The position numbers were made by a program, and so were the translations under genes. 64,000 nt of DNA. Origin: Halpernia frigidisoli (GTDB lineage Bacteria > Bacteroidota > Bacteroidia > Flavobacteriales > Weeksellaceae). The stretch is from positions 124,001-188,000 of the forward strand of contig NZ_FOQT01000003.1 in assembly GCF_900113805.1 (NCBI RefSeq), read 5' to 3'. Below, one piece after another: positions 2,993-48,065 of the stretch. The notes under the pieces are model-generated. The model saw nothing but the letters and a program-made list of their open reading frames with translations. It was not told the origin of the DNA and did not search any database. Positions within the stretch are counted from its first letter, which is position 1; every line of letters starts with the position of its first letter.

Positions 2993-5845
2993 TTATTTTA
3001 AGGTTTTCTTTACAGAAATTTCTTCATAAACTTCCAAAATGTCACCGGCTTCAATATCATTAAAACCTTTAATATTAAGTCCACATTCATAACCTTTTGT
3101 TACTTCTTTCACGTCGTCTTTGAAACGTTTTAAACTTTCAAGTTTACCATCAAATTTAACAATACCATCTCTCAATAATCTGATATTTGAATTTCTGGTC
3201 ACTTTTCCCGTTAAAACCATACAACCTGCGATTGTACCTACTTTCGTGATTTTGAACGTTTCTCTAATTTCTACGTTACCAATTACCTGTTCTTTAATTT
3301 CTGGTGAAAGCATACCTTCCATGGCTTCTTTTACCTCATCAATAGCATCGTAGATTACAGAATATGTTCTGATCTCAATCTCTTCTTTATCTGCTAATTC
3401 TTTTGCATTAGCACCAGCTCTTACATTAAATCCTATTACGATAGCATCTGAAGCTGCTGCCAAAAGAATATCACTTTCAGTAATCTGACCAACACCTTTA
3501 TGTAAAATATTAACCTGAATTTCTTCAGTAGATAATCTAACTAACATATCGGAAAGTGCTTCTACAGATCCATCAACATCACCTTTTAGGATAATATTAA
3601 GTTCTTTAAATTCACCAAGCGCAATTCTACGACCAATTTCATCTAAAGTTAAATGTTTTTTAGTTCTTATAGACTGCTCTCTTTGTAACTGATCACGTTT
3701 ATTAGCAATTGTTTTCGCTTCTTTTTCATCAGTGAAAACTCGGAATTTATCACCCGCTGTCGGCGCGCCGTCCAGACCTAAAATAGTTACCGGGATCGCT
3801 GGACCTGCAGTTTCCAAAGGATTTCCACGTTCATCCAGCATGGCTTTTATCTTACCATGATTTGTTCCTGCTAAGACATAATCGCCAATTTTCAAAGTTC
3901 CGGATTGTACGAGAACTGTTGAAATATAACCACGACCTTTATCCAGCGAAGCTTCAATAACAACACCCTGACCTAATTTATCCGGATTTGCTGTTAATTC
4001 TAATAATTCAGCTTGTAATAAAACTTTCTCCAAAAGAGCGTCCATATTGGTTCCGATTTTCGCAGAAACTTCCTGAGACTGAACATTTCCACCCCATTCT
4101 TCAACCAAAACATTCATTGCAGAAAGCTGCTCACGAACTTTATCAGGATTTGCTCCCGGTCTGTCCATTTTATTTAAAGCAATGATCATTGGAACGCCTG
4201 CCGCCTGAGCGTGAGCAATAGCTTCTTTAGTTTGCGGCATCACATCGTCATCAGCTGCAATAACAATAATTGCAATATCCGTCACCTGCGCACCACGCGC
4301 TCTCATAGCAGTAAATGCTTCGTGACCTGGTGTATCTAAGAAAGTAATTCTTTGACCATCTTCAAGTTCCACATTGTACGCACCAATATGCTGTGTAATT
4401 CCACCAGATTCACCGGCGATCACATTTGTTTTTCTAATATAATCTAAAAGCGAAGTTTTACCATGATCTACGTGACCCATTACGGTAACAATAGGTGCAC
4501 GACTCAATAAATCTTCTGGAGCATCCGCTTCAACTTCTGTTATAGATTCCTCAAGATCTGCATCAGAAAATTCTATTTTAAAGCCAAATTCATCAGCCAC
4601 TAATAGCAAAGTGTCTGCTTCCAAACGTTGGTTCATTGTTACCATTACGCCTAAAGAGAAACATGCTGAGATTACTTCCATCGGGCTCACTTCCATCAAA
4701 CTTGCAAGTTCTCCTACAGAAATAAATTCTGTTACTTTTAAAGTGGTATCTCTTGCATCAGCTTCATTCTGAAGATCATCCTGCTCTCTTCTATAAACTC
4801 TTTTTTCTTTTCGATATTTAGAACCTTTAGATTTACCTTTTTTGTTGGTTAATTTTTCTAAAGTTTCTCTAATTTGATTTTTAACCTGCTCTTCCGTTAA
4901 TTCTACTGGCATTGAAGGTCCTGTTCCACGTCTGCTGGTTCCAGGTCGTTGTTGACCACCGCCGCCTCCGGGACGATTATTATTATTATTGTTATTACCT
5001 GGACCACCCGGGCGATTTTGCTGCGGTGGGCGGTTTGCCCCTCCCGTATTTGCTGTTCCAGTTGTGCCAGTATTTGCAGTACCTGGTTTGCCAGGAACTT
5101 CTATTCGTTTTCTTTTCTTTTTATTTGCACCTGCAGCAGGCTTCGGTTTGTTGAACTGTGATAAATCAACAGTTTGCTTTAAAATTTTAACACCTTCAAG
5201 TTTTTTATAAACCGTTTCAATCACTTGAGATTCCGGTTCTTCAGCTGTAGTTGTAATTTCAACAGTTGCTGCGGGCTCAGTTGCTTCAGCTTTTACAGGC
5301 TCTACTTCTACAGGTTTTTGTTCTGCTTTTGGTATTTCAGCTTTTGGTGCCTCTTTTTTAGTATTTCTTGGTTTTGTTCCTTCAATTTGAGAAAGATCAA
5401 TTTTATCTAAAACTTTGAACTCCTGTTTTTCAGGCTGTTTAATAGATTCAACCACAGGTTTTTCCGCGACCACCTCTTTTTGTACAGGAACTTCCGCTTG
5501 CACCTTCAGCTCTTCCACCACTGGTTTTACCGGATTTAGATCTATTTTACCTAAAATTTTTGTTTCGTTTTGCGGCTCAGCCTTAGCGCGGATCACTTCT
5601 GGTGCTCTTTGCACTTCAAGCTGAAGTTTTTCTTCCGGAACTTTTGCGATCACCACTTCATGAGAAGCCTTTTTCTGTTCTCCGTCTTTACGGAACTCCG
5701 CCTCTAATGCAGAAAATGCCTTTTCTTCTAACACAGTATTTGGATTGTTCTCAACTTCCATACCCAGGCTTTGTAGAAAATCTACCGCACGAGGTATAGA
5801 AATGTTAAGTTCCTTTACTGCTTTATTTAATCTTATTTTTGGCAT
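2993..5845 (-). CDS. infB: translation initiation factor IF-2
   Basis: GTPase that places initiator tRNA on the 30S subunit and promotes subunit joining. The 950 residues begin with an IF2_N-like helical domain (1-50), then a long charged Pro/Ala/Lys/Glu linker with three related segments ([28 protein letters not shown] at about 96, 144 and 220), then a Gly/Asn-rich tract with seven consecutive Asn (about 284-290) and a basic second N domain. The G domain carries GHVDHGKT (457-464), DTPGHEAF and NKMD, followed by IF-2 beta-barrel domains and a C-terminal initiator-tRNA-binding domain. Last gene of rimP-nusA-infB. The long disordered linker is usual for Bacteroidetes IF-2. Confidence 0.98.
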
Positions 5846-5926: not shown

Positions 5927-7162
5927 TTAAATATCTAATTCCGCCTTTAATATTTGTTTTACATCATCGATGGTCTCATCCTCCAGATCGACTAGTTTCG
6001 CGAGTACATCTGTGTCTTTATCAACAATACTTCTTGCTGTAAGTAAACCCACTTTTTTAAACTCATCAATCACCCAGTCTTCGATCTCATCTCTAAATTC
6101 ATCGATATTTACATCATCATCTTCTCTCTTCTCTCTGTAAACATCAATTTCATAACCGCTTAACCATGTTGCCAAACGAATATTTTGTCCCTGTTTACCA
6201 ATCACTCTGGAAATTTCTTCAACTGGCGTGTAAACAAGCGCGTATTTAGTTTCCTCGTTGATCTCTATTTTATTAACAGTCACATTACCCAAAGCTCTTT
6301 TCACCATTATTTCAGGATTTTTAGACCATTGAATAACATCAATATTTTCATTTTTCAACTCACGAACAACTCCATGAATTCTTGAACCTTTCACGCCAAC
6401 ACAAGCACCAACAGGATCAATTCTGTCATCATAAGCATCAACCGCAATTTTCGCTTTTTCTCCAGGAATTCTAACTACTTTTTTCAAAATAATTGTTCCG
6501 TCCTGAATTTCCGGAATTTCCAGTTCCAATAATTTTTCCAAAAATACTGGCGAGGTTCTGGATAGTATGATCTGTGGTTTTGAACCATGAAAATCAACGC
6601 TTTCAACTATAGACCGTATGCTTTCTCCTTTTTTAAAATAATCGGAAGGAATCTGATTTTCTTTCGGTAAAATAAATTCATTGCCCTCATCATCAAGCAA
6701 AATTACGTGCTTATTTCTGATATGATGTACTTCTCCTACAACAATCTCACCAATCTTATCGTGAAATTCGTCATATAATGCCGCATTGTTATATTCCTGA
6801 AGTTTAGTTGAAAGAATTTGTTTTAAAGTTAAAACACTTCTTCTTCCTAATTGTGACACTAAAATCTCTTGTGTATATTCTTCTCCAACTTCAAAACTTT
6901 CGTCAATTTTTTTTGCCTCAGAAAGTTCTATTTCTAAATCATCGTCTTCAGACATTTCGTCTTCCACGATCATTTTATTAAGAAAAATCTGAAAATCGCC
7001 TTTATCCGGATTCACGATCACATCAAAATGATCATCAGAATCATATCTTTTTCTAAGTAAAGTCTTCAGGGAATCTTCGATAATAGCCATTAAATCTATC
7101 TTGCTGATTCCTTTCTCGTCTTTAAAATCGCCAAATGATTCAATCAACGCTAAATTATCCAT
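5927..7162 (-). CDS. nusA: transcription termination/antitermination factor NusA
   Basis: RNA polymerase-binding factor that modulates pausing, termination and antitermination. The 411 residues show the N-terminal RNAP-binding domain (about 1-125), an S1 domain, then KH1 (VGVKGSRI) and KH2 (IGKQGQNI) with intact GxxG loops. The C-terminus ends in a short helical segment (DLEDETIDDVKQILKAEL) and lacks the two acidic repeats of the 495-residue E. coli protein, as is usual outside Proteobacteria. It lies 21 nt downstream of rimP and about 80 nt upstream of infB. As E. coli NusA affects readthrough in its own operon leader, the hairpin upstream of rimP is relevant. Confidence 0.97.
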   Translation of the reverse strand: MDNLALIESFGDFKDEKGISKIDLMAIIEDSLKTLLRKRYDSDDHFDVIVNPDKGDFQIFLNKMIVEDEMSEDDDLEIELSEAKKIDESFEVGEEYTQEILVSQLGRRSVLTLKQILSTKLQEYNNAALYDEFHDKIGEIVVGEVHHIRNKHVILLDDEGNEFILPKENQIPSDYFKKGESIRSIVESVDFHGSKPQIILSRTSPVFLEKLLELEIPEIQDGTIILKKVVRIPGEKAKIAVDAYDDRIDPVGACVGVKGSRIHGVVRELKNENIDVIQWSKNPEIMVKRALGNVTVNKIEINEETKYALVYTPVEEISRVIGKQGQNIRLATWLSGYEIDVYREKREDDDVNIDEFRDEIEDWVIDEFKKVGLLTARSIVDKDTDVLAKLVDLEDETIDDVKQILKAELDI

Positions 7163-7183: not shown

Positions 7184-7648
7184 TTAAAATTTTACTACAA
7201 CAAGGGCTTTTTTAATGTCAGTGTAAGAAATTTTTCTTTCTTCAACTACATCTTCTTTCCCCTTGCCGATCAGTTTTGGTCTTCTGTATTCCAGTTTTAA
7301 AGTAATATCGGTGTCACTTACATCCATAAGTTCTCCTGCTATTTCTTCATCATTATTCAACCAAACTTCAATCTCTCTTTCTATATTTTTTCTAAATTGT
7401 CTCGGCGTCTCTAAAGGTTCGCTTAAACCTGCGGACATCACCTGAAGACTGAAATCTTCATCCTCTTCAAGATTAAATTCTATCGCGCGGCTCGCATCAA
7501 GACAATCCTGAAGAGTGACGCCGTTGTCTCCATCTAAAATTACTGTAATATCTTGTGCGGATGTTATTTTCGTTTCTATCAGGAAAAGATCTTCTCTTTC
7601 CGCTAAGAAATCATTTATTAAACCGGCAACTTTTTCTTTAAAACTCAT
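7184..7648 (-). CDS. rimP: ribosome maturation factor RimP
   Basis: Assists 30S subunit maturation. The 154 residues contain the N-terminal alpha/beta domain (ITVILDGDNGVTLQDCLDASRAIE is the characteristic segment; LQVMSAGLSEPL follows) and a C-terminal SH3-like barrel (REIEVWLNNDEEIAGELMDV). Length is normal. It is the first gene of rimP-nusA-infB, an arrangement conserved across bacteria, which supports the call. ATG at 7648 lies about 70 nt after the predicted transcription start, leaving room for the leader hairpin. Confidence 0.93.
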   Translation of the reverse strand: MSFKEKVAGLINDFLAEREDLFLIETKITSAQDITVILDGDNGVTLQDCLDASRAIEFNLEEDEDFSLQVMSAGLSEPLETPRQFRKNIEREIEVWLNNDEEIAGELMDVSDTDITLKLEYRRPKLIGKGKEDVVEERKISYTDIKKALVVVKF

Positions 7649-7666
7649 CTCAATAATGCTGAAAAT

Positions 7667-7705
7667 TCATCTACGAAAAAAGGCTTTCTTCCGAAGCCTT
7701 CCCAT
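7667..7705 (-). CDS. possible 12-codon leader peptide upstream of rimP
   Basis: On the minus strand an ATG at 7705 opens a 12-codon frame (MGRLRKKAFFRR, stop TGA at 7667) in the leader between the operon promoter and rimP. The frame covers the whole terminator-like hairpin, so a ribosome translating it would unfold the hairpin. It is basic and has no recognised family. No Shine-Dalgarno is visible, as for most genes here. A frame this short can occur by chance. Confidence 0.25.
   Translation of the reverse strand: MGRLRKKAFFRR
7676..7700 (-). terminator. terminator-like hairpin in the rimP-nusA-infB leader (possible attenuator)
   Basis: Minus strand: AAGGCTT (7700-7694), a 7-nt loop, AAGCCTT (7686-7680), then a run of T down to 7676. 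This is intrinsic-terminator geometry. It lies after the operon promoter and before the rimP ATG. The gene on the other side (ugd) is transcribed away, so there is no upstream gene for it to terminate. Confidence 0.6.
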
Positions 7706-7725
7706 TTTATCCCGTAAATCTTTTG

Positions 7726-7757
7726 CAAAGATAAAATAAAAAATAATGTTATGCAAA
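7726..7757 (-). promoter_or_regulatory. promoter of rimP-nusA-infB
   Basis: Minus strand: TTTG (7757-7754), 20-nt spacer, TATCTTTG (7733-7726). Both boxes match the Bacteroidetes sigma consensus TTTG / TAnnTTTG exactly. Predicted start of transcription is near 7719, giving a leader of about 70 nt. It is the most complete promoter I found in the window. Confidence 0.75.
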
Positions 7758-7799
7758 TACATTAAACTACTTAAAAACAAGATAATAAAACAGATTTCG

Positions 7800-7807
7800 T
7801 ATTTTTG
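7800..7807 (+). promoter_or_regulatory. -7 box of the ugd promoter
   Basis: TATTTTTG matches TAnnTTTG exactly and lies 21 nt before the TTG start chosen for ugd. No convincing -33 box is seen. The box overlaps a possible upstream TTG start at 7805, which argues against that start. Confidence 0.5.
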
Positions 7808-7828
7808 CAAAAATTAAAACATAAAACT

Positions 7829-9142
7829 TTGAATATAACGATCGTTGGGACAGGATATGTAGGTTTGGTAACCGGCACTACATTAGCAGAATTGGGAAAT
7901 TCCGTCTACTGTGTTGATATTGATGAGAAAAAAGTCGAAGCCATGAAATTGGGTAAAGTTCCAATTTATGAGCCCAATTTAGAGGAAATGTTTTTAAGAA
8001 ATATTCAGGCGCAACGTTTATTCTTTACCACAAATCTCAAAGAATCTTTGGAAAAGAGCGATGTTATTTATCTCGCGCTTCCAACGCCACCAGGTGAAGA
8101 TGGTTCTGCGGATCTTTCTTATGTTTTAAAAGTGGCCAATGATATTGGTGAAATGATGACTTCTTATAAAGTGATCGTCAATAAATCTACGGTTCCTGTG
8201 GGGACTGCAGATAAAGTTCGTGCAACAATTGCTGCCAAAACGTCTGTGGAATTTGATGTGGTTTCTAATCCGGAATTTTTGCGTGAAGGTTTCGCCGTAG
8301 AAGATTCCATGAATCCCTCGAGAGTTGTAGTTGGCTCAAGTTCGGAGAAAGCGAAAGGTTTTATGTCTAAAGTTTATCAGCCTTTCACAAATATTGGTAT
8401 TCCTATTATATTTATGGATGAAAAATCTTCAGAATTAACAAAATACGCGTCCAATTCTTTTCTCGCCGTGAAAATTACGTTCATGAACGAGATCGCAAAT
8501 TATTGTGAAAAAGTAGGCGCTGATGTTGATAAAGTTCGATTAGGAATGGGAAGCGATGACAGGATCGGAAATCGATTTTTATTCCCGGGAATTGGCTACG
8601 GCGGAAGTTGTTTCCCGAAAGATGTGAAAGCCTTAATAAAATCCGGAAAACAGGAGAATTTTGATTTTCAGATTTTAGAAGCGACTGAAAACGTCAATAT
8701 TTCTCAAAAAGTAATACTAGTCTCAGAAATTGAAAATTATTTTGGTGGAAATCTTAGAGGTAAAAAAATTGCACTTTGGGGTTTGGCCTTTAAAGCAAAT
8801 ACAGATGATATCAGAGAAGCTTCTTCTTTAGATAATATTAAATTATTACTCGAAAAAGGTGCAGAAATTACCGCTTATGATGCGATCGCCGAAGAAAATG
8901 TAAAGAAAATTTTAGGTGATAAAATTTCTTACGCTTCAGATATGTATTCTGCGTTGGAAAATGCAGATTGTCTTTTGATCGCCACAGAATGGAGCGAATT
9001 TAAAAATCCTAATTTTAAATTAATGGCAGAAAAGTTAAAAAATAAAGCGATTTTTGACGGCAGAAATATGTTTCCTTTGGAATTACCGGAACAAAATGGA
9101 TTTTTTTATAAATCTATCGGAAGAAGAACGGTTGGGGAATAA
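7829..9142 (+). CDS. ugd: UDP-glucose 6-dehydrogenase
   Basis: Oxidises UDP-glucose to UDP-glucuronate with two NAD+, a cytoplasmic precursor step for surface glycans. Shows the N-terminal Rossmann motif (GTGYVGLVTG), the family segment PIYEPNLEE, the Lys-containing central helix (FLAVKITFMNEI) and the catalytic Cys in GIGYGGSCFPKDVKAL (Cys about 261 from this start), then the C-terminal UDP-binding domain. I chose TTG at 7829 because family members begin close to NITIVGTGYVG; an in-frame TTG at 7805 would add 8 residues but lies inside the -7 box. First gene of the glycan locus. A UDP-ManNAc dehydrogenase is less likely given the substrate-loop sequence. Confidence 0.93.
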   Translation: MNITIVGTGYVGLVTGTTLAELGNSVYCVDIDEKKVEAMKLGKVPIYEPNLEEMFLRNIQAQRLFFTTNLKESLEKSDVIYLALPTPPGEDGSADLSYVLKVANDIGEMMTSYKVIVNKSTVPVGTADKVRATIAAKTSVEFDVVSNPEFLREGFAVEDSMNPSRVVVGSSSEKAKGFMSKVYQPFTNIGIPIIFMDEKSSELTKYASNSFLAVKITFMNEIANYCEKVGADVDKVRLGMGSDDRIGNRFLFPGIGYGGSCFPKDVKALIKSGKQENFDFQILEATENVNISQKVILVSEIENYFGGNLRGKKIALWGLAFKANTDDIREASSLDNIKLLLEKGAEITAYDAIAEENVKKILGDKISYASDMYSALENADCLLIATEWSEFKNPNFKLMAEKLKNKAIFDGRNMFPLELPEQNGFFYKSIGRRTVGE

Positions 9143-48057: not shown

Positions 48058-48065
48058 CAAATTTA
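48058..48065 (-). promoter_or_regulatory. -7 box upstream of mfd
   Basis: Minus strand TAAATTTG, an exact TAnnTTTG match, 88 nt upstream of the mfd ATG at 47970. No clear -33 box. Confidence 0.35.

Follow-up and report, generated by a model that had tools for sequence, protein, structure and literature searches.

Why should a terminator-shaped hairpin stand between a promoter and rimP, the first gene of an operon that also encodes NusA and IF2? Such an arrangement is found in the window, the whole 64,000-nt stretch of Halpernia frigidisoli contig NZ_FOQT01000003.1 that we analyzed. An earlier note on this DNA had read it as an attenuator-like leader with a possible leader peptide and plausible feedback by NusA. 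We evaluated this reading in the window and in samples of leaders from Bacteroidota. The leader feature is real, conserved, and mostly explained.

Anatomy of the leader

The operon is read from the minus strand, and its gene names were assigned by NCBIfam models: rimP at 7184..7648 (NF002531, 178.8 bits, cut-off 123), nusA at 5927..7162 (TIGR01953, 351 bits, cut-off 253.4), and infB, encoding IF2, at 2993..5845 (TIGR00487, 814 bits, cut-off 424.4). The closest named relative among the fetched loci is Halpernia humi (L031), whose RimP is 84% identical.

The promoter element (7726..7757, minus strand, like all leader features described here) consists of TTTG at 7757-7754, a 20-nt spacer, and TATCTTTG at 7733-7726, and it was recognized by what we take to be the promoter consensus. 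Between it and an ATG lies GATTTACGGG (7720-7711), the 5′ part of the leader, which holds a ATTTACGG box (7719-7712) that is conserved in an alignment of 75 distinct family leaders; transcription probably starts near 7720. The ATG (7705-7703) stands at the foot of the hairpin and opens a 12-codon frame, MGRLRKKAFFRR (7667..7705), of which the start codon is kept in the family and the frame is not. The terminator hairpin, AAGGCTT-CGGAAGA-AAGCCTT (7680..7700), is defined by its sequence, folding, and conservation, and it runs into six T (7676..7681), the first two of which are shared with the stem. A conserved CGTA (7675-7672) follows directly, and after 23 further bases rimP begins, 27 nt from the end of the T-run. 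The earlier note had described the same promoter, the hairpin and T-run before rimP, and the frame spanning the hairpin, with coordinates that proved correct when re-read, and its statement that the upstream ugd is oppositely oriented is borne out by the gene annotation.

The fold of segment 7725-7646 is more stable than those of 198 out of 200 dinucleotide shuffles (z -2.38), and a dedicated scan gave the leader hairpin a stability of -8.8 kcal/mol. Over 400 kb of this contig we counted 700 TAnnTTTG sites; 17 of them are followed within 75 nt by a terminator of -5 kcal/mol or better, and only five, the rimP leader included, by one at least as stable as the leader hairpin. Since an equally stable terminator is this rare among such sites, the arrangement of promoter and hairpin is not chance. 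The four other sites, each with a more stable hairpin and T-run within 75 nt, are at contig positions 200257 (+), 231816 (-), 18094 (+), and 172065 (-, window position 48065); they may be attenuators, small RNAs, or chance occurrences.

A simple terminator scan returned no excess of terminators (2 sites vs. 1.5 expected) and listed the leader hairpin on the plus strand only (tail CCCATTTTAT); the miss on the minus strand probably reflects extension of the stem, which consumes the T-run. The plus-strand entry would fit a terminator between rimP antisense transcripts and ugd, possibly as a side effect, although the T-run that relatives keep sits on the rimP strand. Within the whole window, Rfam gave no match at gathering score. 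Those to MicC, FopS, and Phe_leader were weak and far below their gathering scores, and a known Rfam element was rejected as an identity for the leader. Matches named for rimP were also absent, at E<=10 for positions 7400-7900 and at E<=1 for eight loci, in an Rfam copy that may contain no rimP family.

Conservation of hairpin, promoter, and stem sequence

Searches for RimP matched 317 of 320 genomes in the family, 104 of 148 at the order level (including 20 from the family), 135 of 149 at the class level, and 147 of 148 at the phylum level. Leaders were drawn from 80 named loci, the best matches of each search (at most 30), 30 of 35 chosen family genomes, and 40 further order genomes; 50 of the 84 order genomes that lie outside the family and have RimP were covered. 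The class and phylum samples are best-scoring matches, not random ones. Sixteen named loci of Flavobacterium and Arenibacter (L095-L110) belong to the order group, and in the phylum group of 27 the single miss of the hairpin count is L221, the one genome from the same class. Merging upstream sequences whose last 150 nt were identical reduced 262 of them to 234, all of which were used for the hairpin and promoter counts. Their stem patterns divide them into 100 leaders of AGGC type, 71 of GGGGAC type, and 63 of neither.

The hairpin test required -6 kcal/mol or better and a T-run within the 190 nt that precede the RimP match, and it was applied to the 234 distinct upstream sequences and to five dinucleotide shuffles of each. 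Among the sampled leaders, a hairpin with T-run precedes rimP in 111 of 111 from the family, 60 of 66 from the order, 22 of 30 from the class, and 26 of 27 from the phylum, against 23/555, 8/330, 9/150, and 19/135 of the respective shuffles (2-14%). This automatic test was failed by 15 of the 123 leaders outside the family, and seven of the eight class-level failures do have a GAGGGGAC hairpin, with a broken T-run. In three leaders (L195, L247, and L256), the scored hairpin is another one, farther upstream, and the leader hairpin is also there. Aligning the leader in relatives had been the earlier note's own check, and the hairpin is indeed kept, beyond shuffles, in the family, order, and class samples.

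In the 60 nt 5′ of the scored hairpin, an exact TAnnTTTG is present in 110 of 111 leaders from the family, 60 of 60 from the order, 21 of 22 from the class, and 6 of 26 from the phylum, with 4-6% of base-shuffled 60-mers as the control. Conservation of the promoter part extends from the family to the order and class and does not reach the phylum level. The phylum level provides the weakest evidence, because its shuffle rate is the 14% and its exact promoter motifs are so few.

The promoter element also decides whether the hairpin could simply terminate an upstream gene at its 3′ end: it lies between the two, and this candidate is therefore ruled out. Upstream neighbors vary among relatives (L136 and L151, for instance, have tRNA genes some 190-270 nt ahead of rimP), and the hairpin and promoter stay. 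In some order-level sequences a same-strand upstream gene seems to end nearby, on an unchecked reading.

The bases of the stem differ by lineage. The alignment of 75 distinct family leaders has conserved ATTTACGG, ATG, and AAGGC...GCCTTTTTTCGTA; the stem is AAGGC/GCCTT here and GGGGAC/GTCCCC in 71 of the 234 leaders, by pattern, and the commonest stems outside the family are of the GAGGGGAC...GTCCCCTC type. At the phylum level, seven leaders (L207, L215, L219, L223, L225, L226, and L228) have a C-rich 5′ arm, TCGCCC...GGGCGA, which is the reverse of the usual polarity. An A+T-rich short stem-loop is seen directly 5′ of ATGAGGGGAC, e.g. in L095-L100, L127-L134, L109, L110, L135, and L144, and it varies by group: TTATTTA/TAAATAA or variants, or GAATA/TATTC or GGATA/TATTC.

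Genome searches showed where such stems occur. The family pattern ACGG-N3..12-ATG-N3-AGGC-N6..14-GCCTTTTTT matched 47 of 100 family genomes, once in each, and its reversed control matched none; 10 of these matches were not checkable, and all 37 that were stand upstream of the RimP match at a distance of 26-58 nt. The order pattern GAGGGGAC-N2..8-GTCCCCTCTTT matched 42 of 146 order genomes, each at rimP, with 42 of its 43 matches on the RimP strand 14-113 nt upstream and the remaining one being the same near-palindrome on the opposite strand. The patterns are strict, and therefore a genome that they miss may still carry the leader. Where a pattern matches, the stem is specific to this leader, as in the rimP-leader attenuator discussed below: it occurs at one place per genome, at rimP wherever checked. 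Because the stem patterns are single-copy and at rimP in this way, these comparisons suggest that the stem sequence is likely selected, beyond pairing and bare stability.

A stem conserved in sequence, not in pairing alone, and matched only at rimP where checked might be read by a factor other than NusA, such as RimP, a ribosomal protein, the immature 30S subunit, or another protein, and feedback by RimP was raised as a possibility in PMC2965389. NusA feedback, however, is supported by published work on B. subtilis and E. coli, and we regard a different reader of the stem as quite unlikely.

Outside the hairpin, the window fold shows an outer pairing, ATTTACG/CGTAGAT. Of the 75 leaders, 63 form this outer stem with 4 to 7 contiguous pairs, vs. 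24% when the 3′ strand is permuted; its bases hardly vary, and some leaders break it. As an antiterminator it has no covariation support, its sequences being nearly invariant, and the 75-leader alignment with its consensus fold yielded no antiterminator with covariation. This null result, together with a sequence that shows no sign of regulation, is what one would expect of an unregulated partial terminator or a source of short RNA that merely fixes the expression level. The enterobacterial rimP leader is in fact among the attenuator-derived RNAs bound by ProQ (PMC5391140). Conservation in many lineages before one operon, and that the one encoding NusA, argues against a purely constitutive element, which we consider improbable.

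The start codon at the foot of the hairpin

An ATG just 5′ of the hairpin is present in 98 of the 100 AGGC-type leaders, 95 times at one offset. In leaders of this type the distance from promoter to ATG varies from 24 to 35 nt, and some of the longest distances, at least, reflect a second TAnnTTTG. The GGGGAC-type leaders are divided, with an ATG in 35 of 71 and none in 36. Taking one representative per genus, we found the ATG in 25 of 30 genera. These are 30 of 33 genus labels, as g21 had no RimP match and g25 and g29 had no fetched locus; representatives of g8 and g32, whose loci had been dropped as duplicates, were added back. Read by eye, the five ATG-less genera have UUG (g26, g31), GUG (g15), AUA (g33), or no such codon (g13) at this place.

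With these exceptions read by eye, the T of the ATG register is kept by 29 of the 30 genera, the G by 28, and the A by 26 or 27, vs. identity in at most 19 of 25 representatives for each of the ten columns 5′ of the ATG. The column counts take the 25 ATG-bearing representatives, in which the ATG columns are 25/25 by construction, and score the five ATG-less genera as misses. None of the genus counts are independent, because the genera are related, and binomial values computed as if they were carry no weight here.

The frame behind the start codon behaves differently. The 98 ATG-bearing family leaders encode 59 distinct peptides, and their distances from the ATG to the end of the T-run fall into all three frames (43, 46, and 9 leaders). 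Two of the 98 are AUG-UAA, one stops after four codons, and 30 have no stop before rimP. The bare AUG-UAA sits on the hairpin foot in L079 and L084, and L234 has GUG-UAG at the same place. These figures rule out a conserved leader peptide. They also bear on classical leader-peptide attenuation, in which translation of or stalling on the 12 codons would decide whether the hairpin folds. The frame does stay open past the hairpin in 95 of the 98 leaders, which speaks for such a mechanism, but no run of one amino acid's codons was seen in the peptides, and because sequence and frame vary and two leaders are AUG-UAA, the leader peptide that the earlier note had thought possible is not supported. 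We find attenuation of this kind very improbable. On sequence comparison, then, the start codon is lineage specific and conserved in the family, with no conserved peptide.

The start codon itself is conserved, and therefore ribosome binding at the foot of the hairpin stays a possible second input. In the Weeksellaceae and many Flavobacteriaceae, a 30S subunit or ribosome on the AUG could cover the 5′ arm and block termination, and the peptide would be irrelevant, even where it is AUG-UAA. The near-constant ATG and offset in AGGC-type leaders, its presence in most genera, a register better kept than the columns 5′ of it, alternative start codons in three of the five exceptions (UUG, UUG, and GUG), and the two AUG-UAA leaders all point in this direction. 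The element is not universal, however, given the GGGGAC-type leaders that lack it; the sign of the feedback would be positive; and a T-run some 45 nt from the start would leave little time for subunit loading. In addition, the relatedness of the genera limits the counts, and the A-rich flank on the 5′ side shows a fair degree of conservation of its own. On balance we hold such sensing of initiation to be unlikely. Were it true, synthesis of RimP (a 30S maturation factor), NusA, and IF2 would be tied to the supply of initiation-competent subunits. In the literature that we searched, no description of a kept AUG at a hairpin foot was found.

A Shine-Dalgarno-like role of the G-rich arm was a further candidate reading. 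Another translation signal was seen nearby. Just before rimP, AGGAGGT, a good Shine-Dalgarno match, is present in L032-L035, L040, L041, and L044 (Epilithonimonas and relatives). This is odd for Bacteroidia, because in F. johnsoniae rpsU is the only gene with an obvious Shine-Dalgarno sequence (PMC9976891).

Proposed NusA feedback and related leaders

We think it reasonably probable that the leader is a promoter-proximal attenuator of rimP-nusA-infB, the Bacteroidota form of the rimP-leader, with termination stimulated by NusA. RNA polymerase would start near 7720 and meet, about 45 nt later, the intrinsic terminator that is evident in the sequence. By analogy with other phyla, NusA bound to the polymerase would stimulate termination at the leader hairpin. 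Few transcripts would then reach rimP, nusA, and infB when NusA is plentiful, whereas polymerase would read through when NusA is scarce, giving negative feedback. The attenuator-like character and the predicted NusA feedback, which the earlier note had considered plausible, are backed by the conservation, the stem patterns found only at rimP, and published parallels in other phyla. Points against this reading are the lineage differences in stem sequence, the reversed polarity of the seven phylum-level leaders, the 15 leaders outside the family that failed the hairpin test, and the weak evidence at the phylum level.

The nearest of these parallels is the rimP-leader terminator, to which Naville and Gautheret (2010, PMC2965389) gave the rank of most ubiquitous transcription attenuator, naming NusA as the best candidate. 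Like it, the leader here appears as a short intrinsic terminator before the same operon, placed in our case between promoter and rimP. The published stem is conserved and found at no other terminator, without a larger conserved structure, and the published terminators stand 4-130 nt before the gene, compared with 27 nt here. The stems differ, GGGc/gCCC in the published motif vs. AAGGC/GCCTT in the window and most of its family; the GGGGAC/GTCCCC stems of relatives are closer to it, and the C-rich 5′ arm of the seven phylum-level leaders has the reverse of its polarity. The ATG at the hairpin foot has no counterpart in the description given by the consulted parts of that article. Because the leader in the window lacks GGGc/gCCC, we class it as a variant within this kind of system and not as a carrier of the motif. 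The main text of PMC2965389 does not contain the word Bacteroidetes, its species lists being in the supplement.

Related leaders have been studied in other phyla and closer to Halpernia. In B. subtilis, NusA-stimulated termination in a 5′ leader autoregulates NusA (PMC12288461), and leader termination there controls entry into the gene, where ours is a leader known by its sequence. In the S. agalactiae operon gbs0413-gbs0418, which includes rimP, nusA, and infB, termination occurs 31 nt after the start and NusA feedback was proposed (PMC4448216); the predicted distance here is about 45 nt from the putative start. F. psychrophilum has a structured 5′ element before rimP, without an Rfam hit and found in other Flavobacteriaceae genera (PMC9723704), which is likely identical in kind to the leader described here.

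The E. coli operon metY-rimP-nusA-infB also has terminators directly before rimP, one of them GGGC...GCCC with seven T, but two terminator-shaped hairpins stand in tandem there and an initiator tRNA gene lies upstream, consistent with the different layout that the earlier note had mentioned. NusA feedback in E. coli is reportedly the subject of one paper, by its title. NusA is said to regulate its operon in that species (PMC6511841), and a rimP fusion fell in a Rho mutant (PMC7815308). The consulted parts of PMC8060035 hold nothing on the rimP leader, and those of PMC7366714 do not name rimP or nusA.

Attenuators of this kind are thus known, and the F. psychrophilum element (PMC9723704) means that the Bacteroidota form is not wholly new. 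As far as the literature searched goes, the present analysis adds the counts, a stem and box specific to the family, the test for one match per genome, and a start codon kept without a peptide. Together they extend the rimP-leader attenuator to Bacteroidota, with counts, and name the exact bases at which the proposed NusA feedback could be probed in a phylum where few attenuators have been studied. They also separate a conserved start codon from an unconserved peptide, two features that the earlier note had joined. If the start codon matters, the leader would be an unusual attenuator, one that senses initiation and not elongation.
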